IMG/VR virus record: IMGVR_UViG_3300030102_007332
Coordinates: 1 to 25,059 of that record
Reading direction: 5' to 3' (one strand)
Origin: a virus
Length of the DNA: 25,059 nucleotides
Each line of letters starts with the position of its first letter. Positions within the stretch are counted from its first letter, which is position 1. The notes beneath the pieces are model-generated. The model saw nothing but the letters and a program-made list of their open reading frames with translations, searched no databases and was not told where the DNA came from. Positions 145 to 24,128 of the stretch are shown in pieces. The position numbers and the translations under genes were made by a program.

Positions 145-158
145 TTTATTTTCCCTAT
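140..158 (-). promoter_or_regulatory. Translation start region of the portal-like gene, shared with the gene at 3018
   Basis: Read on the minus strand this is ATAGGGAAAATAAAATGGC, a Shine-Dalgarno-like AGGGA nine bases before ATG. The same 19 bases occur without mismatch at 3014-3032 in front of an unrelated protein. The site overlaps the terminase stop codon (155-157), which suggests translational coupling. Confidence 0.6.
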
Positions 159-1729
159 TTAATTAACCACGTCAAATCTTCTCCACCGCCTGGAGTATCC
201 CATTTCCAATCTTTATGTTCTGTTTGAGTGTACATACCATCACTTCTATGAATATTTTCTATAGCATTCTTACTCAAATTTATACCATCATTTCTAAGCT
301 TGAGAGCAGTATCTCTAACCCAAAGTCCTATACCTAACGCCATTACTAAGTCGTCATTATATCCTTTTTGAGCTTCTGCTCTATGTCCTTTCCAGATAAA
401 AACAGCCAATTCGTCAAGTAGTCTTGTTGACCTGACGATTAGCGATCTTTCTCTAAAATAAATATCAAGTTTCGAAATTAAAAGTGGCCTGGTTTTACTA
501 GATGTTGTAAATCCTGGAGTCATTTGACTTTTATCTTTCAAATCATAACCTTTTTGTATTTGTGTTGTAGCGTCTGTAACGCCGTCTTGTTTATATGTAT
601 AATATAAATTTTTATACTGTCTATCTATTGCACTTTGAATTGCACCAAATCCTACACTTGCATTTTCTATTACCAATAGGGCTTCATTATATTCTGTAGC
701 AACTGTTACCAACATATTACCAAAGTCTTTAGGAGTTAATTGACCTCTAAATTCTGCAACTTGGGTAACATTGTCTATATCTAAAACATGAAAGGTAGAA
801 AAATCTGTTCCGTCTCCTCTTGCTACATCTGCTATTACCATATAGTCTTTAGAATAATCAGGATATTCCCAAACCCAATATTCTCCATCTCTACCACGTC
901 TTTCAACAGGTTCTTGCATATAGGTATCTTTATACCATTGAACTGTTTGTCCTTCAATTACAGTATTACCAGAAGATACAAAGTCACAATCACATTCTTG
1001 TGCGGCCATTTTTGCACCAAGTAATTGTTCTTGTTCATTTCTCCATTCTTGGTCTCTTTCTGGATGTAAACTCCAATGTAGTCTAATAGTATTAAACTTG
1101 TTTCTACCTTCTTCGGCTGCTACCCATGTTTTATGAAAGAAATTACCTGTACCATTTGGTGTTGAAAGAATTATAGCTTTACCACCAGTTGCAAGTGTTT
1201 GTTGTGCAGATGCCCATATTTCATCAATTTTATCAATAAACGCGGCTTCATCAATTACTAGAAGTGATAAAGCTTCAGATCTACCTGCATCACCTGAACT
1301 AGAAACTGCCTTTATTTGTGAACCATTCTTAAATCTCAATGATAATTTATTATCTTCAACAGTGGTACCTTTTAACCAGCTAGGAAGATAATTGTGCATC
1401 TCTCTAACTTTAGTTACTAGGTTTTTTGCAACCTCTTGTTTTGTTGCAATTACAAGTACGTTTTTATCTTCTTGAAAAAGCATTAACCAAAGAGAATATC
1501 CTGCAGATAGAGTTGATATACCTAACTGCCTAGACTTCAATATAATATTATAGTCATGGTCTGATAAATCTTCTAAACTGTGTTCTTGAAAAGGGTATAA
1601 TTTAAACGGTATTCTACCCCTTGTTGGATGTTGAATCTGACAATACTTTTTCATAAAGTATACTGGGTCAGATGCACATTTAGTATATTCTTGTTTAATT
1701 ATTTGCTTAAGAGATTGTTTCTTGCTCAT
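155..1729 (-). CDS. Terminase large subunit, packaging ATPase and nuclease (T4 gp17 type)
   Basis: This is the motor that drives DNA into the prohead and cuts the concatemer. The 524-residue product shows the whole motif set. There is a Walker A-like SRQLGIST at about 66-73, as in gp17-type terminases. The Walker B is LLVIDEAAF at about 156-164, with D160 and the catalytic E161. The coupling motif ILSTPNGTG is at about 187-195. The RNase H-like nuclease half has acidic residues at D301 (VIADVARGDGTDF), E355 (LLVIENASVGFG) and D459/D460 (YNDDLVMALG). T4 gp17 is somewhat longer, at about 610 residues, and nothing essential seems missing. The start at 1729 has no clear Shine-Dalgarno. It directly follows an AT-rich stretch, AAATATATATTTATATAT, which contains the recurrent TATAAATA octamer on the opposite strand. 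The portal-like gene follows after 10 bases. Confidence 0.95.
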   Translation of the reverse strand: MSKKQSLKQIIKQEYTKCASDPVYFMKKYCQIQHPTRGRIPFKLYPFQEHSLEDLSDHDYNIILKSRQLGISTLSAGYSLWLMLFQEDKNVLVIATKQEVAKNLVTKVREMHNYLPSWLKGTTVEDNKLSLRFKNGSQIKAVSSSGDAGRSEALSLLVIDEAAFIDKIDEIWASAQQTLATGGKAIILSTPNGTGNFFHKTWVAAEEGRNKFNTIRLHWSLHPERDQEWRNEQEQLLGAKMAAQECDCDFVSSGNTVIEGQTVQWYKDTYMQEPVERRGRDGEYWVWEYPDYSKDYMVIADVARGDGTDFSTFHVLDIDNVTQVAEFRGQLTPKDFGNMLVTVATEYNEALLVIENASVGFGAIQSAIDRQYKNLYYTYKQDGVTDATTQIQKGYDLKDKSQMTPGFTTSSKTRPLLISKLDIYFRERSLIVRSTRLLDELAVFIWKGHRAEAQKGYNDDLVMALGIGLWVRDTALKLRNDGINLSKNAIENIHRSDGMYTQTEHKDWKWDTPGGGEDLTWLIK

Positions 1730-3075: not shown

Positions 3076-3633
3076 TCACATATCTTCTAAATATTTATTC
3101 CAATCTAACAATTCCTTCTTAAATTTTGCCTTGATTTCTTCTTTATTTAATCCACCAGACCAATCTTCTATTTCACCAAGCTCTGTTACAAACGTTGGGT
3201 TATTATCTATCCAATCATTGAACTGCATAGTTATATCTGCTATTTCTGCAGTTTTTGATAGTTTGAATAATTCTTTCTTTTTATCTTGATAAGTTCCCTT
3301 ATTTCTCATTTGTTGTTCTTCTAATGTTACGCAGCTTAAACACTTTTTATTTATTTTCCAGTGATGTCTATCAAACTGACCTTTCATAACATTTCCACAT
3401 TCAGGACAACATAAAGGCATTTTAACAAAATCTCTAACCTTTTGCATTTTAGATATAGTTTGTTTTATACCATTTTTTATTGTCCAAATTTTATTACCTT
3501 CTTCCCAAACATCTCCTTCTGATCGTTCTTCTACTTTTTTATATCCTATTTGAGTTTTTACAGATTTGGTATAGTCTCCTTTGACTATATTTCTCATTCT
3601 TTGAACTTTTTCTTCGCTTATACTTTTCTTCAT
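3076..3633 (-). CDS. Hypothetical zinc-binding protein
   Basis: A 185-residue basic protein that I cannot assign. Around residues 75-101 it has a probable zinc site: C76 and C79 (CCPECG), the histidine pair H90/H91 (FDRHHWK), and C98 and C101 (KCLSC). This is a treble-clef-like or HNH-like spacing. I do not see a full HNH nuclease motif, so a purely structural zinc ribbon is more likely. The N-terminal 70 residues are lysine-rich, and the C-terminus (about 110-185) is mostly charged helix ending in WNKYLEDM. The start is supported by AAAGG nine bases before ATG. The gene begins 8 bases after the stop of the NMNAT/ligase-like gene and is probably co-transcribed with it. DNA or RNA binding is an inference from basic charge plus zinc site. 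Confidence 0.7.
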   Translation of the reverse strand: MKKSISEEKVQRMRNIVKGDYTKSVKTQIGYKKVEERSEGDVWEEGNKIWTIKNGIKQTISKMQKVRDFVKMPLCCPECGNVMKGQFDRHHWKINKKCLSCVTLEEQQMRNKGTYQDKKKELFKLSKTAEIADITMQFNDWIDNNPTFVTELGEIEDWSGGLNKEEIKAKFKKELLDWNKYLEDM

Positions 3634-3641
3634 AACCTTTC

Positions 3642-5957
3642 TTAAAACGTCATCATACCAGTAATTTGGTTTACCGGTGCAAATGCTCCTGTTAATTTGT
3701 ACGTATTTCCTTTATATATAAAAACTAGACCTTCACTAGGAATAATAGTCTTAAACCCTCCAATTGCAGCTATCTTCTTTAATTGTTGAGTCATTCTATT
3801 TAATTTTTTAAGGTCTCCACCCTTTCTAACATCACTAATAGCTTTTGCAACTTGCTTTCTTACATTTTGGATTGCTTTATCTGGATTTGCAGCCAAAAAT
3901 CCTTCCACATTCTTAAGAACCTCTGCACCTAACTCAAAAAATAGAGTTTCAAATGGCAACATGTTTTTCTTAACTTGATCTGCATGTTTCATTTTATCAA
4001 ATTCTTTTGCCTTTTTAAGAGTCTCTTCTTCAGGAATATTCTTTTTATCTAATCTAAATGATTTGTCAAAGAATGCCCAACGTTTAACCAGACCCATTTT
4101 AGTTTTATTATCAATTCCCTTTATATTCTTATCTACAAAATCTTCCCACCAGGCTTGATGATATTCTGCAAATGTTGAAGTGTCTTTCATCTTGTATTTT
4201 TTCATCAACCTATTTAGTTTTGAAATAAAATATGGCTTTTTAGCTGAATAGTCTTGGTGTGGATTCATCTTAAGAACTTTAGGACCAATAATAGAAAAAT
4301 TCTTTTGTACTGTTTGGTTGACTTGAGCTATCATACCAGCAAGTATTCTTGCTCCATCTTTTACTGCTCCAATTGCTTTGCCATCCTTATATTGTAATAC
4401 ATTGTGAAACTGTAGATATGGAGCGTCATAAGTAATAACATTTGCAGAAGCTGGAAACATGATTTCCATATTTACCCAATTATTACCTTTATTAAATATT
4501 TTATCTTGTTGTTTTGGTGACAAACTTCCAATTGCTTTACCCAAATCTTTCATAGCAAAAGTAAACGCTTTTTCTATATTACCTCTACCCTTAAATTTAG
4601 CTGCAACTGCCTTATAGTCCATTCCACCTCTCTTTAAGTCTCCAGTATTTCTAGCTGCCAGCATTTTTCCATTCCAACTAATGAATAAATTTTGACCATC
4701 TGTTTTTTCGGTAGCAGCTTTTTCTAGATCTAGATTTCCTTGGAGTGCAAGGTCAATAATATTCTTAAAATCACCGAATGTTAAACCTTTATCGTCAAAT
4801 GGATGAGACATGTGACCATAAGCTCCGCCTTCAACTAATAATATTTGATTAGCTAGCCACTGGCCTAGATTTTCAGTTATATTTGTTGGTTCTTCAAACT
4901 TTATTGGTTCCTTAATTTTTTCACCACTAACATTCTTTTTATTTTTAGACTCTTCTGCACCCATAAAGTCTACAAACTTCATTCCTGCTACTTGTGCAAC
5001 TTTGGTTATTCTAGATTTCCAACTTGTATATGCCTTTGTTTCTTTATAGTTTTTTTGGTTTGTGGCTGTATCTGTTCCTGCTACTCCAGCTGGAAAATAG
5101 GTTACACCTTGTGAATAGTCATTGGTATTTTCATCTTTAGCAAGGTTTATTATATTTGACTCGTCTCCAATAATATAATCAAGAACTTCAAAGCCAATCA
5201 TTTCTGCAAAGTTTTTACCTTGGTTTTCATATCCAGCTGGGGTAATAAAATATGTTGGTGGTCCGTCGTCAACATCTGCTCCTACTGTTGAGGTTGCTGA
5301 AGCTTCAGCTATGATTTCAGAAAAGTTTATATTTTTACAGAATTCTAATATAGATTCATTAAGCTTTTCTAGTTTACTAACGATTAAATTATAGTTTTTA
5401 GTATGGCCAAATATACCTTTAAATATTTTTAGCTTTTCTTTTTTATCTAGTGAAGTATCACCTAAAGCTTTTCTAATTGCTGTTCCACTCATTTCACCAT
5501 ATCCAGGTACATTCATACTTACGTGTGGAGCTTCTATTATATATGCACCATCTTTGTATCCAACTTCAGCTTTACCTTTCCATGGTCTAAAAAACTTACC
5601 TTTTAGTCTACCAGCATCTTTTTTACCAAACATAAATACTGCTGCGGTAGTTTTAGGGTCATACTTTTTAAGTATTTCTTCTGCCTTGTAAGGACTCTTT
5701 ACTTGTACAACTTTAGATATTCCATGAGACTTAATTATTTTCTTTTTTTCTGCAAATGAAAATGGTGATTTTGGAAGGTCGACCTTACCACTTGTTGCTA
5801 CATAGGCATCGCTAAATTTTGACTTAAGAAACCTAAATGTTTTTGCATGATGAGCTCCCATAGGTTGAAACCTACCGGGATAGATAGCAACTATGTTTTT
5901 TATCTCCTTATTTTCAGGTATTAAGCCTTCTACTAAATGTCTTGTCAAGTTATCCAT
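3642..5957 (-). CDS. Fusion of NMN-adenylyltransferase-like domain and ligase-like (KxDG) nucleotidyltransferase domain
   Basis: The 771-residue protein has at least three parts. Residues about 20-200 form a nucleotidylyltransferase of the NMNAT/cytidylyltransferase superfamily: IVAIYPGRFQPMGAHHAKT at 22-40 (H37 is the conserved histidine; the usual HxGH reads GAHH) and MSGTAIRKAL at 156-165, matching the ISxTxxR phosphate-binding motif. Residues about 225-335 are a middle region of unknown fold. Residues about 375-771 look like the covalent nucleotidyltransferase fold of DNA/RNA ligases and capping enzymes: motif I EKTDGQN with candidate nucleophile K418, a motif III-like NMEIMFP (E498), and motif IV/V-like SEGLVFIYKG (E742) and TYKLTG (K754). 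Ligation or AMP transfer is therefore plausible but unproven. A TATAAATA octamer lies just before the ATG, and AGGTG overlaps the previous stop. T4 RNA ligase 1 also assists tail-fibre attachment, which is notable beside these fibre genes. Confidence 0.7.
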   Translation of the reverse strand: MDNLTRHLVEGLIPENKEIKNIVAIYPGRFQPMGAHHAKTFRFLKSKFSDAYVATSGKVDLPKSPFSFAEKKKIIKSHGISKVVQVKSPYKAEEILKKYDPKTTAAVFMFGKKDAGRLKGKFFRPWKGKAEVGYKDGAYIIEAPHVSMNVPGYGEMSGTAIRKALGDTSLDKKEKLKIFKGIFGHTKNYNLIVSKLEKLNESILEFCKNINFSEIIAEASATSTVGADVDDGPPTYFITPAGYENQGKNFAEMIGFEVLDYIIGDESNIINLAKDENTNDYSQGVTYFPAGVAGTDTATNQKNYKETKAYTSWKSRITKVAQVAGMKFVDFMGAEESKNKKNVSGEKIKEPIKFEEPTNITENLGQWLANQILLVEGGAYGHMSHPFDDKGLTFGDFKNIIDLALQGNLDLEKAATEKTDGQNLFISWNGKMLAARNTGDLKRGGMDYKAVAAKFKGRGNIEKAFTFAMKDLGKAIGSLSPKQQDKIFNKGNNWVNMEIMFPASANVITYDAPYLQFHNVLQYKDGKAIGAVKDGARILAGMIAQVNQTVQKNFSIIGPKVLKMNPHQDYSAKKPYFISKLNRLMKKYKMKDTSTFAEYHQAWWEDFVDKNIKGIDNKTKMGLVKRWAFFDKSFRLDKKNIPEEETLKKAKEFDKMKHADQVKKNMLPFETLFFELGAEVLKNVEGFLAANPDKAIQNVRKQVAKAISDVRKGGDLKKLNRMTQQLKKIAAIGGFKTIIPSEGLVFIYKGNTYKLTGAFAPVNQITGMMTF

Positions 5958-11570: not shown

Positions 11571-11921
11571 TTATGAATTATCTCCAACATAAAATACACC
11601 ATCTTTATAGTATATTCCTCCTTCAACGGCAGTTGGTGCACTATCTGGAGCTCCAAAAACTGTAACTCCTTCTGTATTTACTTTTAATTTTGCCGAATTA
11701 CTACCCACTGTTGGCATACTAACAATAAATGGGTCACGAGCAGAAGATCCCGTTAATACAAAACTAGATGAAACAAATACACCTACATCAGACTTTATAG
11801 ATATATCAGTTGAAGCAGATAATATAAAATCTGAGGCAGAACCAGTTATGAATGCAGTCTGAGCTGATGAAGCTGAAAACTGCATAACACCTATTCCTGG
11901 TACTATTCTAATATCTGCCAT
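11571..11921 (-). CDS. Small fibre-associated structural protein
   Basis: A 116-residue protein rich in Ser, Ala and Thr (MADIRIVPGIGVMQFSASSA, then alternating beta-prone segments) ending APTAVEGGIYYKDGVFYVGD. The ending recalls a common terminal motif of phage fibre and baseplate proteins (EGGxYY...FYxG). No enzymatic motif is visible. The ATG overlaps the stop of the giant tail gene by one base (TAATG), with GGAG about 10 bases upstream, so it is translationally coupled to that gene and probably made in proportion to it. This suggests a partner such as a cap, adaptor or small chaperone of the giant protein. That role is inferred from coupling and composition only. Confidence 0.7.
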   Translation of the reverse strand: MADIRIVPGIGVMQFSASSAQTAFITGSASDFILSASTDISIKSDVGVFVSSSFVLTGSSARDPFIVSMPTVGSNSAKLKVNTEGVTVFGAPDSAPTAVEGGIYYKDGVFYVGDNS

Positions 11922-14900
11922 TATATTATTGTCTCCAATGGATCTACATCTTTTCTAGTTCCATGAACTAGATAGTAGGCCTGTATTTTACTAGAAAACA
12001 TATTTCCATTTTTAATAAATATCTTATTGTCTTTAATTTCGCTAACATATAGGTTTTGGTGTTGACCAATAGGAGTCAACTGTACAGTTATAGTATCTTC
12101 ATCAACTAATCCTACCCATTCCTCTGGTAGTTCAATAGTACTAGTTGTTGTTTTTCCTCTATAATATACTGCGTGTTCTGGTCCCTCTAATACACCATAT
12201 TTTAATTTATTTCCTGGTCTTGTTGGGTGAGGAATAACGAATGATTTGACAGCAGCTTCTAACGTTCCATCAATACTAATATTTGTTGGATTAGCACCAC
12301 CACTACCAGTTATATTTCCATGTATTTCAATACTACCAGATCTTGCAACTAATAAATCTCTTCGTTTATTAAATGCATGACCATCTCCAATTGTAAATAC
12401 TGCATCTGTTACTCCATGTTTATTATTCATTCCAAGTACAATAGAACCACCTTTTGAACCAGAATTTACAAGTTGTGTACCAATTGCATGGTGACCGTTT
12501 GTTGAAGTTGCGGATATATGGTTATATGAACCTAATACTATACCACCGTCATTATCTTCGTTATGATTACCATAACCAAACACCATAGTGACATCACTAA
12601 GACCTTTGTTTCCAGCGCTACCACCGACAAAGTTTGCCAGACCCGATCCACTACTCAAGTATCCCATAACAATAGATCTAGCATTTTGATTTGTAACTGC
12701 ATTTCCTTGACCTACAATTAGAGATTCTGCACCATTGATTATTGCGTTATTTGGTATACCGTTTTGATTAGCTCTTTCACCAACAATAAGAGAACCTTCA
12801 AATATAGATACATCATCTCCCATTGGAGTTGCATTTATATTTGATTGTACATGTCTGTCATTATGTCTTACATTTATTGCACCAAAGAAATAATTTTCAG
12901 GAGCTGTACTTTCTACCTGTATATTTCCACTACCAGTAATATTTCTAAAGTCCACATCTCTAGCAATTATATCATCACTAGAACTTATTATACAACTTGC
13001 CGTTACCTTAGACCTTATCAATAAGAAGTTATCACAGTCTGTACCAATAGTTACGTCATTTAATAAGTCACCTGTGCCCGATGTAAAGAAGTTATTATTG
13101 ATTACAGTTGGTTGAGTTATATTTACAATAGGACCAATTACAAAAGTATTATTTATTGAGAATGTTCCTACACCACCTCCTGATTGTCCACCAAGAGTTG
13201 TATTAGATGTGCTACCTCCTTGGTATAAATCTCCATTTTGGTCTACTACAACAGGAGTTGTTCTTCTATCTTGTGCATCTGGAAGAGTTTCAAATCTAAC
13301 TATTGGTGTTGTAGTACTATGGTTAATAGAATTTGAAACATGTAGTCTCCTCTGAGGGTCATGAGTACCAATACCTACACCACCTTCATGGGCAATTGTC
13401 ATTCTTTGAGTTTCTACATTTACACCACCAGTATTTCTAGCATCATCATTACCTGTAAAGAATCTAATTTCTTGACCTCTGTCTCCACGTGCATGTATAT
13501 TTATACTACCTTGTGGATTACCTCCTGTAGTTATATGTAGAACTTCTTGTAATAATCTTCTTCCACCTGCATCAGTATCACCTCCATCTCCAAGATCGTT
13601 TCCAGTTGTTCCACCTTCATAAGTATCTGGATGGTATGATATAGAACCACCAGCAATTCCTCTTGTTCCACCAAAACCATAACTTGCACGTGAATTTAAG
13701 GCATTTACAGCAATTCCTGACCTTGGTCCGTTTGTTGATGGAGAACTACCTCCTGGAGTACCTCCATCTTGAATAAATTTAGATGAAGTTTCCCAGTTGG
13801 TAACGTTCAAGAATACTGCTTGTGAACTTGCACTGTAGAATTGGGCAATCCTTGTAGAAGCTTCAGTAAATTGTGCATTTGAATTTTCAAGCCCAAAGGC
13901 AAACTTACCACTACCAGTAAATACTTGCATGGTAGAATGAGAAACATTTAGAGAACCGGTAATTGAATGTATATTACTTGTAGCGTTACCAATTCTTGAT
14001 GCACCTTCAACCTGTAATTGATGTGTCACAGAGTCACTAGAAAAGTCTCCTATACCTACTCTTCCATTGTGATATATTTGGTCTGAAATTGCTGGATCTG
14101 TTAGTGCATTTGAAGCTCCTTGCTTGTACCAATCATTATCAGCACCATAACTTGCCGTACCTACCAAGTCTCCAACAAAACCTCCGCTTGCACTTATTTG
14201 TCCAGAGGCTGTTACGTTTCTTACTTCAATATCTCCGCTAACACTTACATTATTTGAAGCTGTAATATTTGTTGCATTAAGATTTGTTATATTTGCATTT
14301 GAAGCAGTTAGATGGTTAGTTATTATATTATCACTAGAACTTATAACTGAAGAGGTGATATTTGTAACAAAGATATTAGAAGAAGTTATATTTGTAATGT
14401 TAAACTGATTAACTGTACCTAGTGGAGTATCTGAGTCCATTTGATAAAGGTCACCTAAAGCATCAACAATTACCATATTTACAGGTACAGTTGAAGGATA
14501 AGGAGGTAAATCTTCAAATCTAACTATTGGTTCACTAGTATTGTGGCTAAGTGAGTTTGAAACATGTAGTCTTCTTTGTGGATTAAAAGAACCTATACCA
14601 ACTGCACCATCATTCTTAATAGTTACACGTTGTGTTTCTACATTTACACCGCCTGTATTTCTTGCATCATCATTACCTGTAAAGAACCTAATTTGCTGGC
14701 CTCTATCACCTCTTGCGTGTATATTTATACTACCTTGAGGATTACCACCAGTAGATATGTTTAAGACTTCTTGAAGTAGTCTTGCTCCATTTGAATCTAC
14801 ATCACCTCCATCTCCAACATCATCACCAGTTGTAGATCCTTCATAAGTATCTGGATGCATTGCAAATATACCTGCAGTAGTTCCTCTAGTTCCTCCGAGG

Positions 14901-17900
14901 CCGTAACTTGCACTAGAATTTCTTGCTGTTACCTGGATTATTGCTCTTGGTCCGTTTGTATCTGGAGAAGAACCTCCTGGAGTACCTCCTTGTGCTATGA
15001 AGGCTGACTGTGTTTCCCAGTTAACTACTTCAAGTATAGTAGCTCTTTGACTTCCACTGATAAATGAAGCTATTTGGTTTGTTCTGCTACTGAATTGAGC
15101 TGCACTATGGTCTATACCAAATTGAAATTTACCACTACCTGTTAATACATTTCTAGTATTATGTAGTAATTGTAATGAGCCTGTAAAGTCGTGTCTATCA
15201 TCAGTAGAATTACCTATTCTAGAATTTCCTTCAACTTGAAGTTGGTGAGTTACAGAATCACTAGAAAAGTCTCCTACACCTACTCTTCCGTTATGATAAA
15301 TTTGGTCAGTTATAGTAGGGTCAGTTAATGCGTCAGATACTCCTTGCTTATACCAATCATTGTCAGCGCCATAACTTGCAGTACCTGTTAGATTACCAAT
15401 AAAATTACTAGCACTTATATCACCAGATGCTGTTAGATTTGTTAAACCAGTTATATCATTACCATCTAGGTCTAAGTCTTGAGTTGCAGTATGATTACCT
15501 AAATTATCTCCAGTTGCACCACCACCTATTACATGAGATGCTGTTACGGCATAAGATGCAGATGTTATGTGTCCTGAACCAGTAAATGAACCTGTTGTAA
15601 AGCTAAGTCCAGTAAAACTTCCACTAAAATGTCCAAAACCTCCTAAAGCATGTGAAGCGGTATCCGCTGTTTGAGCATGAGAAGAAGATAATTCAAAGGT
15701 TACCTCGTGAGATGCAGTTACGGCATAGGATGCAGATGTTGCAAATATTGCATAAGACGAGGATAGTGCATAGGATGCAGATATAGATGAATTTGAACTA
15801 GAAACATTCATTGAGCCTGTTTTTGCAAATAGTTCATTAGCTTCATTTATACAAATTGTCTTTGCATCTACTCTAACACCTATTGAATCTCCATCTATAA
15901 AATTAAATAGGTCACTAGAAAATGCCTCTTGTCCTGATTCCCATGATGATGTTGAATTTAATTCTGTAGGAGCATATATGTTTCCATTAGTTGTATGCCA
16001 AGTTGCAGCTCCTTGTGCAAAGTCGTGCTTTTCTTTAATTGATTGGCTTTTTAGTCCATATATTCCACCTTGATAATGTGGAGACAAGTTACCAACAGAG
16101 TTGGATGCATGAGCATAAGGATTAGAACCAGTTATTGCGCTAAGGTTTGCACCAGTCGCAGTAAATCCTATAAAGTCTGCTGAATCGACTGCAGATGTTT
16201 CTATTGCACCATAAATATGTAATGCAAATTGTTGTCTGGCAGGATTACCAATATTTTGTGAAGATGGTAAAGCATAAACATATCCAGAAAAACATGAATA
16301 ATTAGGATGTGCTTCTCCTATAAATAGACCATAATCTCTTTTATAGTCATCTTGAGGTTCACTAGCCCAGTCACTTGCAACTCCTTGTGGAAAACTAGCT
16401 CCATGATAAGTAGCATTAGTTTCATCAACCAATGTAAATACAATGACATTATTATCTGTTACTCCCGAAGCGCTTATTGGAGCATTTTCTAAGTAATAAT
16501 CAGAAGTACTATATCCATAAGCTTCATAATCGTCTGAACCTAAATAAGTTCCATTTGCAAAATCAGTTGAAGAACCTGATGCGTCCCATTTTACAGAAGC
16601 TAAACTTCCAGTAATACCAGATCCTGCACTTAGTCCGTTTTGATTACCAACTGCAGGCCAAGACATCCAAGATAACCACCTTTCTCTATGACCTAATCCT
16701 GCTAAAGTAGTATCTCCAGCTCCTACATATATGTTTCCTTTCCAATATGAATATCTTTCTCTCATATCTTTTTCAAACTTAGGAATAACATATCTAGCTA
16801 GCATTGCGGGACTATCTGTTGCAGAACCACTAAAAACTAAACTTGTATTGTCAATAAAAATATAGATATTTGTATCTGCGTGGAGGTGACAACAACAATT
16901 TTCACTGTCCATAAAATCAAGTGCACAACCTAGTTTTAATTCTGCGACTTCTTGTGAAGAAGTATTATATACAAGAATATTATTATATTCATTTCTGACA
17001 GAAGTTGTACTATTATCTATATTAGTAATATTAGTAACGTCAAACTGGTGTACGCTTAGGTTATTGATAAATGTATCACCACCAAAAATATTAACATTTG
17101 TATTTTTAATTATGAAAGTATCACCAACAATATACGTGTTTATACCGCCGTTATTTATATCTATATTGGTGGTAATTATATCTCCAGTAAATGAACCTGT
17201 ATAAGAACCTGTATGTCTTGCAAAGAGTTCATTAGCCTCATTTACACATATAGTAGTACCATCAACTTTAACTCCAATAGAATCACCATTGATAAAATCA
17301 AATAAATCTGCACTAAAGCTTGCTTGACCTCTTAACCATGAACCAGATTTGTTTGCATTTGCTAAAGACACAGGAAAACCAAGACTGGCAGAATACCAAC
17401 CAGATATACCTCCAACAAAATCATGCTTTTCTTTTATAGATTGACTTTTTAGTCCATATATTCCGCCTTGATACCAAGGAGAATTAGTTCCAACACTATT
17501 TGCCGCATTTGCATAAGGGTTAGAACCAGTTATTGCACTAAGATTACCATTAGTTGGTGTTTCAGATATAAAGTCATCTGAAGCTACTATACCTGTTTCA
17601 ATCGCAGCATAAATATGCAAGGCAAAGTGTTGTCTAACTGGATGAGTAGTACTATTAGAACTTGGTAGTGCATAGACATATCCTGCAAAACATGTATATT
17701 CTGGATGTGCCTTACCTACAAATAGTCCGTAGTCTGCTTTATAGTGGGTTGTTAGGTGATTATTAAAATCTGCTGAAGTACCAGTAAGATTGGTTCCTCC
17801 ACCTGATAAAGAAGAATCATTATGTCTATAGTGGTATCCATTTCCTGCACCTCCATAATTCGGATTATTTCCAGGATCTGTTTCATCAACCATTGTAAAT

Positions 17901-20900
17901 ACAATAACATTTGTATCGGGTACTCCATGCTTTATGATTGGTGCATTTTCTAGATAATAGGCAGATGCACTATATCCAAATGCGTGAAAGTTATCAGAAC
18001 TTACATAAGCTCCTGTAGATTCATCAGTTTGGTTTGTTCCAGCTGGAAATTCTCCCCAAGTAACTGACATCATACTACCTGTTATACCTTGACCTACACC
18101 GTCATTATCAATTCTTTGATTACCAACAGCTGGCCACGACATCATAGATAACCATCTCTCTGCTGGAAGTGTTCCTGGTCCAGGTCCGGCTGCTCCTTGT
18201 CCTACAAATATACTTCCTTTCCAATAAGGATATTTTTCTCTCATATCCTTTTCAAACTTAGGTACTACCCATCTAGCCAATAATTGTGGAGTATATGTTG
18301 CACCAGATCCTCCTTCAGGATTACTGTTAACTACAGCCATACTAGTATTATCTATAAAGATATAAATGTTAGTATCGGCGTGAAGGTGACAACAACAATT
18401 TTCACTGTCCATGTAGTCTAATGCACAACCTAATTTTACATGACCTATTTCACCTGACCCTGTATTGTATACAAGTATATCTCCAAAATTATTTGTTATA
18501 TCTAATATATCTGCATCATAATTTACAGAGCTCGTTATATTTGTTAAATTGTTAACGACTAAAGGACCATTTATCTCTAGGTCAACATCTATATTATCTA
18601 TATTTTCTGTAATTAGATTTGTTGGTGCAATAGTCCATTCGTTATCCATGCAGATATTGTCTATATAGACTTTTTCTGCACACATGTGTCCTTCTATATT
18701 ATAGAACTCAAACATAAAGTCAAAGACATCTCGCCTATCAGGATGAGATAATCCTCTTGGTAAAGGTACTAAGTAATTATAGTTGTGAGTAGATACACCT
18801 GCTCTTTCGTAAGGTTTAACAGATATTTCTTGGAAGTACCATAGACCTCGTTCTATTTCAAACCTAAATTCTCCGATAGCATCTGCATCAGCTTTAAATG
18901 GAAACCTAAAGTTTACTTCTAATACGTGGTCTACACCAGAATATCCTTCTACTTTTTTAACGTCAACAATTCTACCTTTTGGTTGATTAACATCATTAAC
19001 TTCTCCAATAAGCTTACCAAGTCCTATTCTATTTGTGTCATCTTGGAATGCATCTCCAAATCCAAATATATCAAGTCTTGGTGCAGTTAAAATTGGTCCA
19101 TCAGGTATAGTATATGTGTTATTTGTAGAATTAACAGTTTGTCCAGATATCATACCACCATAAAGTGGAGGCTGAACTTGGAATCCTGGAGCTTGACCTG
19201 CTTTAACTTGTCCTTTACTATTGGTAGGGTTTCCTATAACAAAAGTTCCAATACCGTGTGCAACACCTAAATGATTGTTTTCTAGACTAGTTACCTCTCT
19301 ACTTTTAACAAATGCACTTACTTCTAGAACATAAACCTTATCTTTCTTAAATGATGCAGAAACAGTACTTCTTAATTCCACCACTTTTAGAGGTTGTACA
19401 CTAGGGTCTCTTCCAACATTATCATCTAATGGTGAAACTTCTCCAAGTGTACCAACCCTAAGAGATGGTCGCATTGGTATAAAATCTAGAACTTCATTTG
19501 GCGGTTGTTCTACAGTTGGGAAAGCGAGTGATTCTGATACTATGGCAAGCGTTGGAGGTTCTAGACCGGGGCTAGCAGTTGTTGTCCAATAATTTCCAAA
19601 ATATCTTACGTCTGAAGTATCTACAGAAGAATTTAATCTATCAAATCTTCCGCATGGTATATTCTTAAATCTATTTTTATTATAGTGTGGAGACATTGAA
19701 ACTACTAGCATTTCTTGTGCCTCTACTGGTAAATCTGAACAAAGTTCGTAGTCATCTGGTCTAGACTCTGCTCTTATATATGTTTTTATTCTATGAACTT
19801 CACCAGAATACGGGTCTAAATCATCTACTATAATTCCAGCATATGAAGTCTTATACAGAGATTCATCTTCTAGTGGATCTAATGTTGGGTATCTACTATG
19901 AGAATAAGGTGGCATTGCCCATGTTAATGTAAAGTCACTAGGATTAAACTCTTGATGCATTACTTCATGTAAATCTTGACCAGTTCCTTGGAAAGTTGTA
20001 TGAGGGCTAGATACTAATATTCTAGAAGGAGAAAGTACTTGTAATATACTGGTAAAATAAGAACCTTCTGTGTTTGATTGGTTTTCTGGTGTTGAAAAGC
20101 CATCACCATCTTCAACCTGTGCATTTATATTAGAAGTAGCTGGCTCGATTCCTACAATATCTTTTGCATCAAAGAATACTGTACCATTTTCCATATCTCT
20201 AACAAATCCACCAAAGTCAGAACTTGTTAGTTCTAAATATATTTGTTCTCCTCTCTTATCATACGATAACTTTGCATTTGTATTATATGAAGAAGAAAGT
20301 TGATATATAGAACATGTTATTTCATTCTGTATTACTGGATTTGCTGAAGTTAGTGCTGCATCTAGAGATGATGTTAACTTAGTATTAAAGTGGTGCTCAT
20401 AATAAGGAAGTTTTAGTTCCGATACTTCTATTTTTGGTGGAGTAATAAATGTTATTTCAGACGTATTATTAGCGTCTCTGTTAATATATACTCTTTTTGC
20501 CCATCTAATATTAAAAACACTAGGGTTTCTAGTAGCTAGAAGTCTTGCACCAACAACTCTTCCTCTTGCAACAGAAACTATTGTTACCTGTCCATATCCT
20601 TTAGGACGAGTCTCATCTACTTCTATAATTAGTCCAATAGAACCATCACTTCTTCTATTGTCTAAAAGTCTTACTGGTACTAGGTCACCATCTGCATCTA
20701 GAACTTCTACTCCGATTTCAGCATTTTCTACTAATGTTTCCGGATCAGGCTTGATAAAGAATAAATTCTTACCTGCATGAAGTTCTTGTCCTATACCTTG
20801 TACATTAAAATAATTCTCTGAAGTGCCTGAATCTTCTATCTCAACAGGTATAGAATCGTAACCCAGGTATTTCAAGGGATTTTGTAATGTAGGGTCCTTG

Positions 20901-20923
20901 AATGTTCTTTGTATTGTCGCCAC
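11921..20923 (-). CDS. Giant modular tail/fibre protein, 3000 residues
   Basis: One unbroken frame with a GTG start. An in-frame TAG lies 9 bases upstream and GGAG 11 bases before the GTG, so this start is nearly forced. Domain map (approximate): 1-790, beta-rich N-terminal part (VTIVSVARGRVVGARLLA; VYIDNICMDNEW); 815-1235 and 1315-1700, two copies of a module with a CCCH stretch and a vWA-like core (NIYIFIDNTS); 1705-1795, alanine/serine/tyrosine repeats (SASYAL, SASYAV); 1834-2162 and 2242-2570, two copies of a stem module (WYKQG... to GVGIGTHDPQRRLHVSN); about 2700-2860, left-handed beta-roll-like repeats (SLIVGQGN, SIVMGYLS, GIVLGSYN, SIVLGMNN) as in YadA-type head domains; 2893-3000, a C-terminal domain (KSFVIPHPTRPGNKLKYG; LEGPEHAVYYRG; TVQLTPIGQHQNLYV) that I know from marine T4-like virion proteins. 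Role in host recognition is inferred. Confidence 0.85.
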   Translation of the reverse strand: MATIQRTFKDPTLQNPLKYLGYDSIPVEIEDSGTSENYFNVQGIGQELHAGKNLFFIKPDPETLVENAEIGVEVLDADGDLVPVRLLDNRRSDGSIGLIIEVDETRPKGYGQVTIVSVARGRVVGARLLATRNPSVFNIRWAKRVYINRDANNTSEITFITPPKIEVSELKLPYYEHHFNTKLTSSLDAALTSANPVIQNEITCSIYQLSSSYNTNAKLSYDKRGEQIYLELTSSDFGGFVRDMENGTVFFDAKDIVGIEPATSNINAQVEDGDGFSTPENQSNTEGSYFTSILQVLSPSRILVSSPHTTFQGTGQDLHEVMHQEFNPSDFTLTWAMPPYSHSRYPTLDPLEDESLYKTSYAGIIVDDLDPYSGEVHRIKTYIRAESRPDDYELCSDLPVEAQEMLVVSMSPHYNKNRFKNIPCGRFDRLNSSVDTSDVRYFGNYWTTTASPGLEPPTLAIVSESLAFPTVEQPPNEVLDFIPMRPSLRVGTLGEVSPLDDNVGRDPSVQPLKVVELRSTVSASFKKDKVYVLEVSAFVKSREVTSLENNHLGVAHGIGTFVIGNPTNSKGQVKAGQAPGFQVQPPLYGGMISGQTVNSTNNTYTIPDGPILTAPRLDIFGFGDAFQDDTNRIGLGKLIGEVNDVNQPKGRIVDVKKVEGYSGVDHVLEVNFRFPFKADADAIGEFRFEIERGLWYFQEISVKPYERAGVSTHNYNYLVPLPRGLSHPDRRDVFDFMFEFYNIEGHMCAEKVYIDNICMDNEWTIAPTNLITENIDNIDVDLEINGPLVVNNLTNITSSVNYDADILDITNNFGDILVYNTGSGEIGHVKLGCALDYMDSENCCCHLHADTNIYIFIDNTSMAVVNSNPEGGSGATYTPQLLARWVVPKFEKDMREKYPYWKGSIFVGQGAAGPGPGTLPAERWLSMMSWPAVGNQRIDNDGVGQGITGSMMSVTWGEFPAGTNQTDESTGAYVSSDNFHAFGYSASAYYLENAPIIKHGVPDTNVIVFTMVDETDPGNNPNYGGAGNGYHYRHNDSSLSGGGTNLTGTSADFNNHLTTHYKADYGLFVGKAHPEYTCFAGYVYALPSSNSTTHPVRQHFALHIYAAIETGIVASDDFISETPTNGNLSAITGSNPYANAANSVGTNSPWYQGGIYGLKSQSIKEKHDFVGGISGWYSASLGFPVSLANANKSGSWLRGQASFSADLFDFINGDSIGVKVDGTTICVNEANELFARHTGSYTGSFTGDIITTNIDINNGGINTYIVGDTFIIKNTNVNIFGGDTFINNLSVHQFDVTNITNIDNSTTSVRNEYNNILVYNTSSQEVAELKLGCALDFMDSENCCCHLHADTNIYIFIDNTSLVFSGSATDSPAMLARYVIPKFEKDMRERYSYWKGNIYVGAGDTTLAGLGHRERWLSWMSWPAVGNQNGLSAGSGITGSLASVKWDASGSSTDFANGTYLGSDDYEAYGYSTSDYYLENAPISASGVTDNNVIVFTLVDETNATYHGASFPQGVASDWASEPQDDYKRDYGLFIGEAHPNYSCFSGYVYALPSSQNIGNPARQQFALHIYGAIETSAVDSADFIGFTATGANLSAITGSNPYAHASNSVGNLSPHYQGGIYGLKSQSIKEKHDFAQGAATWHTTNGNIYAPTELNSTSSWESGQEAFSSDLFNFIDGDSIGVRVDAKTICINEANELFAKTGSMNVSSSNSSISASYALSSSYAIFATSASYAVTASHEVTFELSSSHAQTADTASHALGGFGHFSGSFTGLSFTTGSFTGSGHITSASYAVTASHVIGGGATGDNLGNHTATQDLDLDGNDITGLTNLTASGDISASNFIGNLTGTASYGADNDWYKQGVSDALTDPTITDQIYHNGRVGVGDFSSDSVTHQLQVEGNSRIGNSTDDRHDFTGSLQLLHNTRNVLTGSGKFQFGIDHSAAQFSSRTNQIASFISGSQRATILEVVNWETQSAFIAQGGTPGGSSPDTNGPRAIIQVTARNSSASYGLGGTRGTTAGIFAMHPDTYEGSTTGDDVGDGGDVDSNGARLLQEVLNISTGGNPQGSINIHARGDRGQQIRFFTGNDDARNTGGVNVETQRVTIKNDGAVGIGSFNPQRRLHVSNSLSHNTSEPIVRFEDLPPYPSTVPVNMVIVDALGDLYQMDSDTPLGTVNQFNITNITSSNIFVTNITSSVISSSDNIITNHLTASNANITNLNATNITASNNVSVSGDIEVRNVTASGQISASGGFVGDLVGTASYGADNDWYKQGASNALTDPAISDQIYHNGRVGIGDFSSDSVTHQLQVEGASRIGNATSNIHSITGSLNVSHSTMQVFTGSGKFAFGLENSNAQFTEASTRIAQFYSASSQAVFLNVTNWETSSKFIQDGGTPGGSSPSTNGPRSGIAVNALNSRASYGFGGTRGIAGGSISYHPDTYEGGTTGNDLGDGGDTDAGGRRLLQEVLHITTGGNPQGSINIHARGDRGQEIRFFTGNDDARNTGGVNVETQRMTIAHEGGVGIGTHDPQRRLHVSNSINHSTTTPIVRFETLPDAQDRRTTPVVVDQNGDLYQGGSTSNTTLGGQSGGGVGTFSINNTFVIGPIVNITQPTVINNNFFTSGTGDLLNDVTIGTDCDNFLLIRSKVTASCIISSSDDIIARDVDFRNITGSGNIQVESTAPENYFFGAINVRHNDRHVQSNINATPMGDDVSIFEGSLIVGERANQNGIPNNAIINGAESLIVGQGNAVTNQNARSIVMGYLSSGSGLANFVGGSAGNKGLSDVTMVFGYGNHNEDNDGGIVLGSYNHISATSTNGHHAIGTQLVNSGSKGGSIVLGMNNKHGVTDAVFTIGDGHAFNKRRDLLVARSGSIEIHGNITGSGGANPTNISIDGTLEAAVKSFVIPHPTRPGNKLKYGVLEGPEHAVYYRGKTTTSTIELPEEWVGLVDEDTITVQLTPIGQHQNLYVSEIKDNKIFIKNGNMFSSKIQAYYLVHGTRKDVDPLETII
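12345..12815 (-). other. YadA-head-like beta-roll region of the giant tail protein
   Basis: The minus strand codes for repeated units of about 14-20 residues with a hydrophobic-x-G core: SLIVGERAN, SLIVGQGNA, SIVMGYLSS, NFVGGSAGN, TMVFGYGNH, GIVLGSYNH, HAIGTQLVN, SIVLGMNNK and FTIGDGHAF. This periodicity is typical of left-handed parallel beta-rolls in trimeric adhesin heads. It suggests trimerisation and surface binding. The boundaries are estimates. Confidence 0.65.
13216..14201 (-). repeat. Stem module, copy 2 (1224-base offset)
   Basis: This is the second copy of a roughly 985-base module of the giant tail gene. Matching landmarks (codons for the WYKQG segment, for SSDSVTHQLQVEG and for GSINIHARGDRGQ) lie exactly 1224 bases from those of copy 1, so no net insertion or deletion separates the landmarks. 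The copies differ at many third positions and some residues, so the duplication is not recent. Confidence 0.85.
14440..15425 (-). repeat. Stem module, copy 1 (1224-base offset)
   Basis: First copy in reading order; see 13216-14201. Both copies run from GTASYGADNDWYKQG through DRGQ.IRFFTGNDDARNTG to RRLHVSNS and GDLYQ. The VGIG..NPQRRLHVS segment is the kind found in fibre stems that precede intramolecular-chaperone regions. Confidence 0.85.
15825..16980 (-). repeat. vWA-like module with CCCH stretch, copy 2
   Basis: Second copy of a duplicated module. The stretch at 16886-16912 (GTGACAACAACAATTTTCAC then TGTCCAT) is identical to 18386-18412, exactly 1500 bases away. Nearer the module end the offset is 1395, so about 105 bases were gained or lost between the copies. 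Conserved protein landmarks are CCCHLHADTNIYIFIDNTS, KFEKDMRE.Y.YWKG, NVIVFT.VDET, YSCFSGYVYALPSS, SIKEKHDF and NEANELFA. Confidence 0.85.
17220..18480 (-). repeat. vWA-like module with CCCH stretch, copy 1
   Basis: First copy in reading order; see 15825-16980. It is about 105 bases longer than copy 2, mainly between IDNTS and the ALPSS segment (for example the glycine-rich GQGAAGPGPGTLPAERW and the GYHYRHNDSS stretch). Confidence 0.85.
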
Positions 20924-20987: not shown

Positions 20988-23900
20988 TTAGTTATAGACT
21001 ACCTTACTTAATCCTGCAGACTTGTTTATTTCTAATAGATTATCGGTAATATCTCTCATAAGGTCTATATGGCTAATCACAACAACATAGTCAAATTCAG
21101 TTTTTAGATAGTCGAACAACATAAAAATAGAATTTAAGTTTGTTGCATCTAAGTTACCAAATCCTTCATCAATTGCCAAAAAGTTTGGTCTAGGTAAATT
21201 AGAAACGTTAATTAAACCTACCCTAATTGCTAGAGAACTTATGAACTTTTCCATACCAGAAGTTAATTCTAGTGCCCATTTTTTATTATCACCATAAGAT
21301 ATTAAAGTATTTATGTTTTTACCATCTACACTAAACTCAATATTAAAGTCAACGATTTGAGACAGAATTGTGTTTACTTCTTCTTGTATATATGGTAAAA
21401 TATTAGATATTAGTTCATACGGTACACCATTTCTCTGTATTGAATTTAGATAGTACTCGTAAGCTTTATATTTTTCTTCTAAGTCATGGGCTTGTTCTAT
21501 AGATGAGTGAATAGAATCTATAGATTGTTTAACCATTGACAATTTACTAAAAGTTTCCTGTAGATTTGTAGAATTTTCTTTTTGTTCTATAGATATATCC
21601 GCCAATTGTTCCTTTAGAGAATCTATCTTTTTTTGTATTTTTGCATTATGGCGAAGGTTTTCTTCGTTTTTGTAGTATTTATCTATTTCTTTTTCTACAG
21701 AATTAAGGTTTCTATTCTTTTCTCTTAATTCAGATCTTCTTTGAACTCTTTTTAATTTTATCTCAGATTGATACTTTGATAATTTATTATGTTCATCAAT
21801 AATATTTTTTAGTTCTACAGACTCTGTTTCAACTGGCTCTAATATTGTAACTAAAGAATCTAATTTTGACTGCCTATCTAAAAGTCTATTAACAGATATT
21901 TTGTCATCTCTTAGTTCATTTTCTATCTTGAACGCGCTCTGAACAAAAGGTGTATTTTTACAAAAATCACAATTAGGGTCAAATTGGCCTATTGCCTTTA
22001 ATTTGTCTAATTTATTCTTGATAATAATCTTAAGTTTGTCTAACTCAGACTTTACAGTTGTTTGTTCTGTTCTTGTCAACTTTAACTTTTTAAGCCTATC
22101 TTCGATATCTTCTGCATTATGCTTCTTTTCTAGTCTTGTCAATTCTCTAAGTCTAGGAGTATTTTCTGAAAAGTATCTATCGTATTTAGCCAATCTTTCT
22201 TCTGCTGAAGATATTTCTAATAGAATGTCTTTTTTCTTTGTTTTTAATTCTTTAATATCTGTAATACTATCTAGCTTCAATAAATTAGAGGTTTGTTCTA
22301 TAATTTTATCGTTTAGTTTTTCACGTTTTTTATTTATTGAATCTTTTATTTTCTCATAGTTTTTATAGTCTTCCTCATGTATTTGTAATTGTTCTTCGGA
22401 ATCTATGAGTTGTTGTGTAAAGTCTAGATCCTTAAAATGTTTCAACAAAACTTCAACTTCCTTTATCTCTTCGTTAGCAACTCTATATAGTTCTTCAAAA
22501 ACTGTAATATCTAGAAATTGTGCTAATAAGTCTTTCTTTTCGACTTGTGTTTTATCTATAAACCCAGTATTATTGTTTTGCAAAGATAGAGCAGTTAATA
22601 CAAAATCTTCATAGTATCCTAAATATCCACGAATATTTCTATTTGTGTATACTCTCTGTTCTCCATTTAACGAAACTTTTTCGCCTGCTTCATCAATCAT
22701 CCAAAAGTCAACATCAACCCTTACATGGCCAGTATGTGACCTCTTTGCTCGTCTTTCTATAAAGTAGTCTATACCGTCTATTTCAAAATTAAAAAGACAA
22801 CTAAAATTATTTTTAGTAGTGTTCATAACCTCAGATGCTGATTTTGTTCTTGAACATTTATCAAATAAACAATATGCAACAGCATCTAAAATTGCAGACT
22901 TACCTGAATGGTTTGGTGCAAATATACCAACTGTTCCATTCATGTTTTGAAAGTTTATTTCATTATTTTCACCATAACTAAACATATTAGAAAACTTAAA
23001 AGTCTTAGGTTTCCAACTCACATTTCTACTTATTTCTACGTCAGGTAAAAGTGAATTTAAGTCTCTATTTATTTTTCTAATACGAGTCAATAAATCAGGG
23101 TCTAAGTCATAATTTCGTTCTAGATAATCTACTATCAATTCATTTTGATAATTAGAATCTCTAATATCTTTAGTTATCTCAATGGCATTCTTAGAATTAT
23201 TAGAAATATTTGCAAGCTTGTCAGTCTTTATATGAATAACGTCTCTAACTCTAGCCTTTTTTCTTATCTCAACTAGACCTTTTTTAAGCTCTGCTTGTGT
23301 AGTATTTGTTGTTCTTATTCTTAGTCTAGGATATTTAGGTATATTGTCTATATTTGGTAATTTACCGTCTATCATATCAACAGTATAATATCCATAGTCG
23401 TTATGTATATCAATAAATTCACCCTTTAGAGTATTCATATCCCATAACATATATCCGTGGTTTTCAAATGTTTCACCAAAGTTTTGTTGAATTAAAGAAC
23501 CAGCATAGGCAATTGTTTCATTCTTATCCAAATACTGGCGTTTATGAATATCTCCTAATAATACAAGGTCACATCCCTTAAAAACAGATTGTTTAAGGCT
23601 TTCATTATTTACAACATATCCTATATCTGTTACTGAATTATGTACCGGTCCATGATGTAAACCAATTTTTATATTAGATGCTTGTGTGGCATCTGGGAAG
23701 TCTTTAGGGTCATCAAATACAGACATGACTATAAAATCTATATTAGAAACTCTGTATATTCCACTATTTTTTAAGTAGTGGAGATGTGGATGTGCAAGAT
23801 TATCTATGATAGGCGATAGTGCGTCTAGTCTACTTGAATTATTTAAGTTAGCATCATGATTACCAGTAATTACTATTGTTGGTCTTATATCAGCCAACTT

Positions 23901-24128
23901 TCTAAAAAACTCAGAAGTTAATTCTACCAACTCAGGACTAATATCTGTTTTTGTATGAACAATATCACCAGCAACATAGATTAAACTATTTTTAGGTAAA
24001 AGTTTTGCTTCTTTATATAGTTTTCTAAATACTTGCCTGTATTCCTTATGTCTTTTGAAGTTTCTAATATGTATATCAGCTACATGTAGAATCTTTTCTA
24101 CCTTATCAAATCCAACGTCTATTTGCAT
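20988..24128 (-). CDS. Fused Mre11-type nuclease and Rad50-type ATPase (T4 gp47 + gp46 / SbcD + SbcC)
   Basis: A single 1046-residue polypeptide. Residues 1 to about 340 are a metallophosphoesterase with all five motifs: DIH (18-20), GD (54-55), GNHD (89-92), HHG (158-160) and GDIH (192-195). Residues about 370-1046 are an SMC/Rad50-like ATPase: Walker A APNHSGKS at about 403-410, long coiled coils at about 550-700 and 735-880, a hook-like CDFC at about 718-721 between them, signature LTSGMEKFISS at about 950, Walker B FLAIDEGFGNLD at about 980, and an H-loop histidine in VVISHIDLM. In T4 these are separate proteins, gp47 and gp46, that resect double-strand ends for recombination-dependent replication; SbcCD does the same in bacteria. 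The fusion fixes nuclease and ATPase at one to one. The ATG overlaps the end of the primase gene by 10 bases. No frame break is seen. Confidence 0.93.
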   Translation of the reverse strand: MQIDVGFDKVEKILHVADIHIRNFKRHKEYRQVFRKLYKEAKLLPKNSLIYVAGDIVHTKTDISPELVELTSEFFRKLADIRPTIVITGNHDANLNNSSRLDALSPIIDNLAHPHLHYLKNSGIYRVSNIDFIVMSVFDDPKDFPDATQASNIKIGLHHGPVHNSVTDIGYVVNNESLKQSVFKGCDLVLLGDIHKRQYLDKNETIAYAGSLIQQNFGETFENHGYMLWDMNTLKGEFIDIHNDYGYYTVDMIDGKLPNIDNIPKYPRLRIRTTNTTQAELKKGLVEIRKKARVRDVIHIKTDKLANISNNSKNAIEITKDIRDSNYQNELIVDYLERNYDLDPDLLTRIRKINRDLNSLLPDVEISRNVSWKPKTFKFSNMFSYGENNEINFQNMNGTVGIFAPNHSGKSAILDAVAYCLFDKCSRTKSASEVMNTTKNNFSCLFNFEIDGIDYFIERRAKRSHTGHVRVDVDFWMIDEAGEKVSLNGEQRVYTNRNIRGYLGYYEDFVLTALSLQNNNTGFIDKTQVEKKDLLAQFLDITVFEELYRVANEEIKEVEVLLKHFKDLDFTQQLIDSEEQLQIHEEDYKNYEKIKDSINKKREKLNDKIIEQTSNLLKLDSITDIKELKTKKKDILLEISSAEERLAKYDRYFSENTPRLRELTRLEKKHNAEDIEDRLKKLKLTRTEQTTVKSELDKLKIIIKNKLDKLKAIGQFDPNCDFCKNTPFVQSAFKIENELRDDKISVNRLLDRQSKLDSLVTILEPVETESVELKNIIDEHNKLSKYQSEIKLKRVQRRSELREKNRNLNSVEKEIDKYYKNEENLRHNAKIQKKIDSLKEQLADISIEQKENSTNLQETFSKLSMVKQSIDSIHSSIEQAHDLEEKYKAYEYYLNSIQRNGVPYELISNILPYIQEEVNTILSQIVDFNIEFSVDGKNINTLISYGDNKKWALELTSGMEKFISSLAIRVGLINVSNLPRPNFLAIDEGFGNLDATNLNSIFMLFDYLKTEFDYVVVISHIDLMRDITDNLLEINKSAGLSKVVYN

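Follow-up and report, generated by a model that had tools for sequence, protein, structure and literature searches.

A family of aquatic phage proteins that pairs a HIGH adenylyltransferase domain with a predicted ligase-type nucleotidyltransferase domain

We analyzed a 25-kb viral contig of 25,059 nucleotides (IMG/VR record IMGVR_UViG_3300030102_007332, positions 1 to 25,059; hereafter the window), in which a gene on the minus strand (3642..5957) encodes a protein of 771 amino acids (aa). Translation of the open reading frame (ORF) and comparison with hundreds of homologues gave the domain order HIGH adenylyltransferase, middle module, and KxDG nucleotidyltransferase. We conclude, with moderate confidence, that the protein is a phage enzyme acting on nucleic-acid ends, which it adenylylates and probably also seals. 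According to its structural model, the C-terminal domain (C domain) folds like lysine-AMP (or GMP) nucleotidyltransferases, shares their invariant motifs, and is closest to RNA ligases. The N-terminal domain (N domain) has a HIGH adenylyltransferase fold nearest to NMNAT and NadM. The protein is one of a large family from aquatic phages that as yet has no name, with several hundred matches in IMG/VR and only three deposited phage relatives found by tblastn.

The C domain (aa 375-771; 3645..4835, this and all following coordinates being on the minus strand of the window) was assigned to the RNA-ligase-like covalent nucleotidyltransferases from the model, structural alignment, and Pfam family PF09414. 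Translation confirmed the place of every motif that a preliminary description of this DNA had named. The domain begins with HMSHPFDD, an N-terminal HxxHxxxD motif (aa 382-389; 4791..4814), followed by motif I, EKTDG (4695..4709; EKTDGQN from aa 417), in which K418 is the candidate nucleotidyl acceptor. Motif Ia is ARN with R436 (4647..4655), and motif III is NMEIM with E498 (4458..4472; EIMFP from aa 498). Secondary structure of the model (its residues 201-362) shows an all-helical insertion between motifs IIIa and IV (aa 570-731; 3765..4250). Motif IV, SEGLVF (from aa 741; 3720..3737), contributes E742, and motif V, YKLTG (from aa 753; 3687..3701), contributes K754, with T756 at the position of the second lysine of KxK. 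We compiled 214 complete homologous C domains, reduced to 98 representatives by clustering at 88% identity. K418, D420, G421, R436, E498, E742, G743, K754, T756, H382, H385, and P386 are the same in every one of the 214, although these domains differ overall by up to ~63%. The ratio of nonsynonymous to synonymous substitution rates (dN/dS) of the C domain, estimated against four relatives, is 0.036-0.045. Because the catalytic positions are invariant (214/214) despite this divergence, and dN/dS is low, we conclude from the sequences that the motif set is not due to chance.

An AlphaFold2 model of the C domain (402 residues), built from the alignment of the 98 representatives, had a mean pLDDT of 90.8 and a pTM of 0.86. 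K418 is modeled at the end of a strand and E498 inside one, while E742 starts, and K754 lies within, the last two strands; this placement fits that of ligase motifs I, III, IV, and V. Foldseek candidates were re-aligned with VIA-align 2, and all 50 entries listed were RNA ligases, DNA ligases, or mRNA capping enzymes. VIA Z scores were 9.2 for Naegleria RNA ligase (root-mean-square deviation 3.9, 185 aligned residues), 8.6 for both T4 Rnl1 and Trl1, 8.5 for REL1, and 8.1 for T4 Rnl2; DNA ligases scored lower, at about 5.5-7. No ligase subgroup is singled out for the C domain, because entries within one Z unit of each other are ties. The preliminary description had proposed a covalent nucleotidyltransferase of ligase or capping type, to be given up if aa 370-771 had another fold or K418 were not conserved. 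The modeled fold is that of a nucleotidyltransferase, the 50 structural entries and the invariant catalytic residues agree with it, and K418 is present in 214/214 domains.

Sequence profiles pointed in the same direction at lower strength. PF09414 (RNA_ligase) was matched by 37 of the 98 members at E ≤0.1, with a best value of 9e-4 that is sub-threshold, and the next family by at most five members. Whole-record searches also gave PF09414 matches at motif I in frames of three homologues. A core-profile alignment to T4 Rnl2 placed EKTDGQN on EKIHGTN and AARN on AKRT and was better than 119 of 120 column shuffles. In these hhalign comparisons untrimmed profiles were weak, a signal relative to shuffles arose only for cores from which the helical insertion had been removed, and the reported probability was low (8%). 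By hmmsearch against the PDB, the C-domain profile had only eS6-like matches, which fell mostly within the helical insertion.

The N domain (aa 19-205; 5343..5903) is a HIGH/NMNAT-type nucleotidylyltransferase according to PF01467, PDB profile matches, and VIA Z scores, as the preliminary description had supposed from its NMNAT-like motifs. It combines the fold of HIGH nucleotidylyltransferases (PF01467) with their two signature motifs, namely GRFQPMGAHH (aa 28-37; 5847..5876), in which HxGH has become GxHH with the second histidine retained, and SGTAIR (aa 157-162; 5472..5489; SGTAIRKAL through aa 165), the second signature of NMNAT type. PF01467 matches 17 of 20 aligned family members (best E 1.5e-8); the window protein by itself stays under the Pfam cut-off (14.9 versus 21 bits). 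A profile of 28 diverse N domains searched against the PDB found archaeal NMNAT (1f9a, 4.5e-8) and NadM (2qjt, 5.7e-7), both ahead of PPAT. By VIA structure comparison, PPAT, NadD, and NMNAT tie at Z ~12-13 (PPAT 12.9; NadM 2qjo 12.2).

The replacement of the first HxGH histidine, already remarked on in the preliminary description, is widespread: among 146 homologous N domains, 103 have GxHH, 37 the canonical HxGH, one TGAH, and one AKHH. With GAHH, the window protein lacks one of the two histidines expected of a NadM-type NMNAT. PPAT has a threonine at the first-histidine position and is nevertheless active. H37, S157, and R162 are invariant in the 28 diverse N domains, and R29, G158, and T159 are conserved in at least 90%. 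Proteins that resemble each other in domain composition can carry either HxGH or GxHH (HSGH in homologue L216, GPHH in L103), and N-domain dN/dS is 0.03-0.07. Since the second histidine is invariant, both forms share similar architectures, and dN/dS is low, the GxHH sequence does not imply loss of N-domain activity. Both enzyme-type domains are under strong purifying selection; dN/dS of the middle part is 0.16-0.23.

The two domains are nearly always found together: 129 of the 131 homologues whose 5' end is closed have both. Of the other two, one is L084, a C domain of 421 aa standing alone in a phage of 462 kb, and one is a fragment of 122 aa. Between the HIGH and C domains lies the middle module (about aa 215-345; 4923..5315), for which the preliminary description had no assignment. 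The architecture census shows it to be a real module, still without an assignment and with low pLDDT in the full-length model; it occurs in most homologues and is shuffled as a separate unit, standing N-terminal to the HIGH domain in L129, L133, and L221. Library matches identified optional partners, namely a P-loop kinase (Zeta_toxin/AAA_33; PHROG polynucleotide kinase), Nudix, ParB-like, and putative zinc protease domains. An optional HAD-like domain also matches PHROG polynucleotide kinase. The names Pol-beta-like, HAD, HExxH peptidase-like, and KOW-like are our readings of the sequences of these modules. An HExxH (HELVH) peptidase-like region lies between the HIGH and ligase-like domains in L183 and similar homologues of 1000-1600 aa. 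A short module (GDTVLMGRFKNKKVVVKSI...LINGR) resembling a KOW/SH3-like barrel occurs at aa 283-335 of L216 and, at variable insertion sites, in 53 other homologues. The sole GTDB relative found (L221, PBHZ01000028.1) lies within a metagenome-assembled genome labelled Euryarchaeota; since a terminase appears to follow it as in phage loci, this contig is probably viral and mis-binned.

Genes for the virion and for packaging surround the gene, and the terminase lies shortly downstream. Along the minus strand the window encodes a DnaG-type primase, an SbcD-SbcC fusion, very large repetitive proteins, the 771-aa protein, a four-cysteine protein, a holin, and the large terminase; we infer that the very large repetitive proteins are virion proteins. 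The large terminase (155..1729; phrog_2, 1.4e-47) is a conserved downstream landmark that 209 of 220 homologue loci have in the same orientation, as do 143 of the 147 with at least 4 kb of downstream sequence; these locus counts are partly redundant, several contigs having been included twice. The next gene (3076..3633) encodes a zinc-ribbon-like protein of 185 aa with four conserved cysteines (C76, C79, C98, and C101) that matched no Pfam family. It lies between the 771-aa gene and the terminase and is a near-constant neighbor: of 175 loci with this protein, 173 have it after the 771-aa gene, with a median gap of 52 bp. Farther upstream, SbcD (Mre11-like) and SbcC (Rad50-like) are fused into one protein of 1046 aa (20988-24128), and their S-PM2 counterparts, gp47 and gp46, are separate genes. 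A 3000-aa ORF with a listed GTG start (11921-20923) contains two long near-duplicate segments and has ITASGxISASG-like repeated motifs in common with its 269-, 590-, and 765-aa neighbors.

A second linkage of the two domain kinds was found in cyanophages. A structural search of BFVD matched protein A0A0M6VVW4 (P0002) of Synechococcus phage S-PM2 (E 1.1e-3, TM 0.46), in which DUF6267 (PF19782, 1.6e-111, residues 5-398) is followed by CTP_transf_like, i.e., the same domain kinds in reverse order. The KxDG, the motif III acid, EGxV, and the motif V lysine are invariant in DUF6267, and its N-terminal HxxHxxD (HLEHLED, with H7, H10, and D13 invariant) is the counterpart of HMSHPFDD. A profile alignment of the DUF6267 core with the window C-domain core was better than 120 of 120 shuffles, with an hhalign probability that is itself low. 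The DUF6267 profile had no match at E 1 in the window protein or 20 family members, showed no profile signal with Rnl2, and found nothing in the PDB by hmmsearch. On sequence grounds we regard DUF6267 as a distant sister family of the C domain that is paired with the same kind of partner. The suggestion in the preliminary description that DUF6267 be compared thus held as to kinship and partner, but the window protein has no DUF6267 Pfam score. In 201 deposited phage records a single place covers at least 80% of the S-PM2 protein, mostly as two adjacent genes among the matches listed. The DUF6267 and HIGH genes overlap by 1-10 bases in P-HM1, S-CAM9, S-H9-2, and S-SZBM1, and Pfam confirms both members of the pair in S-SZBM1 and the HIGH member in P-HM1. 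The S-PM2 fusion and the adjacent cyanophage genes constitute a second, independent linkage of HIGH and nucleotidyltransferase domains. The origin of this pairing in two different domain orders speaks for a single, coupled reaction.

These cyanophages bear on an unlikely alternative, in which the protein seals DNA nicks as the genome is packaged, replicated, or, on entry, repaired, DUF6267 being the missing gp30-like ligase of cyanophages and the window group acting with the terminase. Nine of ten DUF6267-bearing cyanophage genomes had no match to the ligase profiles PF01068, PF01653, PF09414, or PF09511, and the tenth, S-CRM01, had a PF01068 match; the ten were picked for having DUF6267, so the absence of ligases is no statistical association. 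T4 and a Vibrio T4-like phage served as positive controls for all profiles but that of NAD ligase. The location of DUF6267 among replication genes and the invariant place of the window gene beside the large terminase are consistent with such a role. Clokie, Millard and Mann noted that cyanomyoviruses lack T4 gp30 (g30) and considered that distant homologues are still unrecognized or, more probably, that the host ligase substitutes (PMC2984593); the first view would accommodate DUF6267, and under the second, which they preferred, the host ligase may be enough. The nearest folds, however, are RNA ligases (Z 8-9) rather than DNA ligases (5.5-7), and there is no OB domain. A standalone replicative-ligase role in the window group is further weakened because Mel-JY01 has a separate Rnl1-type ligase.

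Published virion proteomics bears on the location of the HIGH partner. The cyanophage HIGH partner T4-GC190, which adjoins DUF6267/T4-GC71 in P-HM1 and Syn33, was detected in virions of S-SM1 (PMC3037559), and the S-SZBM1 HIGH partner, which adjoins DUF6267, was detected in the virion as well (PMC9146016). Cytidylyltransferase or NMNAT-like proteins were also reported in virions of S-CREM2 (PMC10665884) and S-SCSM1 (PMC9602691); in S-CREM2 the genes directly flanking that gene are not DUF6267-sized. By analogy, we infer that the window group may likewise carry its protein in the virion.

A protein delivered in this way might instead be an injected multi-effector (polyvalent) protein whose C domain caps or modifies something other than a nucleic-acid end, with tRNA, a host protein, or a small metabolite receiving the GMP or AMP. 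The late-gene context would suit this, and the mosaic partners (zincin-like peptidase, ParB-like, Pol-beta, and Nudix) overlap the polyvalent-protein repertoire as given in the searched text of Iyer et al. 2017 (PMC5512222). A term search of that text located RNA ligases only in connection with 2H and T4 repair and found no adenylyltransferases; there, a constant pair of HIGH and ligase-fold domains is not a feature of polyvalent proteins. As the structural and profile matches also point to polynucleotide ligases, we consider such a target quite improbable.

The preliminary description had raised the possibility that the protein makes nicotinamide adenine dinucleotide (NAD). In its fullest form, the HIGH domain would be a true NMNAT and the C domain an NAD+-dependent ligase, and the nicotinamide mononucleotide (NMN) freed when K418 is adenylylated would be returned to NAD+ within one chain. 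By profile, the N domain is closest to archaeal NMNAT and NadM, and the conserved HxxHPFDD segment upstream of motif I lies roughly where NAD ligases bear their Ia segment. The kinase and Nudix partners of homologues recall NadR and NadM fusions (PMC9503650). Every NadM-bearing phage is reported to have NadV too (PMC9503650), whereas NadV is absent from all 11 bearing phage genomes searched (Mel-JY01 and ten cyanophages) and present in 1 of 23 family records, most of them fragments; NAD recycling is therefore disfavored. Most members have GxHH in place of HxGH, Mel-JY01 and the cyanophages have no match to the NAD-ligase adenylation family PF01653, and the cyanophage partner has a GRFNPPTTGH-type rather than an NMNAT-type motif. 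NAD synthesis by the N domain, though possible, is not supported, and we would give such a cycle little credence. Retention of degenerate enzymes as a virion or packaging scaffold, for which the position among structural genes and the altered HIGH-motif histidine might speak, can be set aside as very improbable, given identical catalytic positions in 214/214 C domains, a dN/dS of ~0.04, and R29 (at least 90%), H37, S157, and R162 (all) in the aligned N domains.

Several observations weigh against the adenylylation and sealing of ends that we favor. The window protein itself matches no Pfam ligase family, and sequence searches against Pfam, PHROG, NCBIfam, and PDB returned no match for its residues 375-771. 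In the Foldseek ranking itself, T4 Rnl1 and Rnl2 come first at E values that are weak (0.018 to 0.45, PDB), and a VIA Z of 8-9 is moderate for a 402-residue model. Motif V is KxT, without the second lysine of KxK, in 214/214 domains. The protein ends ~17 aa after K754 with no recognized C-terminal RNA-ligase domain, and there are no residues after motif V to form an OB fold with motif VI. Mel-JY01 encodes an Rnl1-type ligase in addition. Only the HIGH partner has been reported in virion proteomics, the S-SZBM1 DUF6267 protein being unnamed in the text of that paper (PMC9146016), and the S-CREM2 authors caution about co-purification (PMC10665884). The C domain thus has the marks of the lysyl-NMP nucleotidyltransferase superfamily (the KxDG lysine, motifs Ia, III, IV, and V in order, and the nucleotidyltransferase fold); it falls short of RNA ligases as delimited by the curated PF09414 cut-off or by KxK plus a C-terminal domain, and of DNA ligases and capping enzymes as delimited by a C-terminal OB fold with motif VI.

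In the mechanism that we propose for an end-adenylylating enzyme, K418 would attack ATP, or another AMP or GMP donor, to form a lysyl-nucleotide, as in the superfamily at large. The nucleotide might then pass from K418 to the 5'-phosphate end of RNA or DNA, and the C domain might seal the ends. The helical insertion may bind the substrate in place of the C-terminal or OB domain that is missing. The HIGH domain could perform a second AMP transfer to a 5'-phosphate, on a small molecule or an end, and so feed, reset, or prepare the C-domain reaction. The accessory kinase, HAD phosphatase, and Pol-beta modules of homologues would prepare ends. Judging from the gene context and the HIGH partner in cyanophage virions, the protein would be made late, probably enter the cell with the DNA, and act at the start of infection. 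A bolder version, which we regard as speculative and rather unlikely, is a virion-carried two-headed adenylyltransferase: the HIGH domain would directly build a 5'-5' A-pp-N linkage (as NAD+ or on an end), which the KxDG domain would use or resolve in joining, capping, or resetting the ends of nucleic acids, the split cyanophage form (DUF6267 and cytidylyltransferase) replacing the missing T4 ligase. Such two-headed chemistry, if true, is not described in one protein.

These results offer a testable enzymatic identity for two very common and unexplained aquatic phage families, the window family and DUF6267. They bear on the open point in the literature that T4-like cyanophages retain the T4 replisome without a recognizable ligase (PMC2984593), and they offer a reason for the recurrence of NMNAT-like proteins in cyanophage virions. 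Provisionally, in a literature search excluding most subscription journals, neither the fusion nor the C-domain family was described, DUF6267 was nowhere identified as a nucleotidyltransferase, and no paper mentioned DUF6267 or cytitidyltransferase for cyanophages. While the parts belong to known kinds, the family, its insertion, and the domain pairing represent new variants.

Compared with RNA ligases (T4 Rnl1, T4 Rnl2, NgrRnl, REL1, and Trl1), the C domain has the same predicted core fold, the motif order I-Ia-III-IIIa-IV-V, and the invariant K, R, E, E, and K. Unlike them, it has a helical insertion of ~160 aa between IIIa and IV and nothing beyond motif V, carries KxT instead of KxK, and is fused to a HIGH adenylyltransferase. 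With NMNAT and NadM (archaeal NMNAT and bifunctional NMNAT-Nudix) the protein shares the HIGH fold, GRFQP, the second histidine of HxGH, and SGTxxR, but the first histidine is replaced in most members (GxHH), the 11 bearing phage genomes searched have no NadV, and a ligase fold is attached. DUF6267 (PF19782) resembles the C domain in KxDG, the motif III acid, EGxV, the motif V lysine, HxxHxxD, and a (P)NxIxY and FH segment after motif III, and both families are linked to a CTP_transf_like/HIGH adenylyltransferase partner. It differs in being too distant for a Pfam match, in its reversed order or separate genes, and in lying among replication genes rather than beside the terminase. Like the polyvalent proteins, as far as the searched text describes them (PMC5512222), members of the window family are large multidomain mosaics encoded with virion genes in the late region, with shuffled effector-type domains; unlike those proteins, they are built round a constant pair of HIGH and KxDG nucleotidyltransferase domains.

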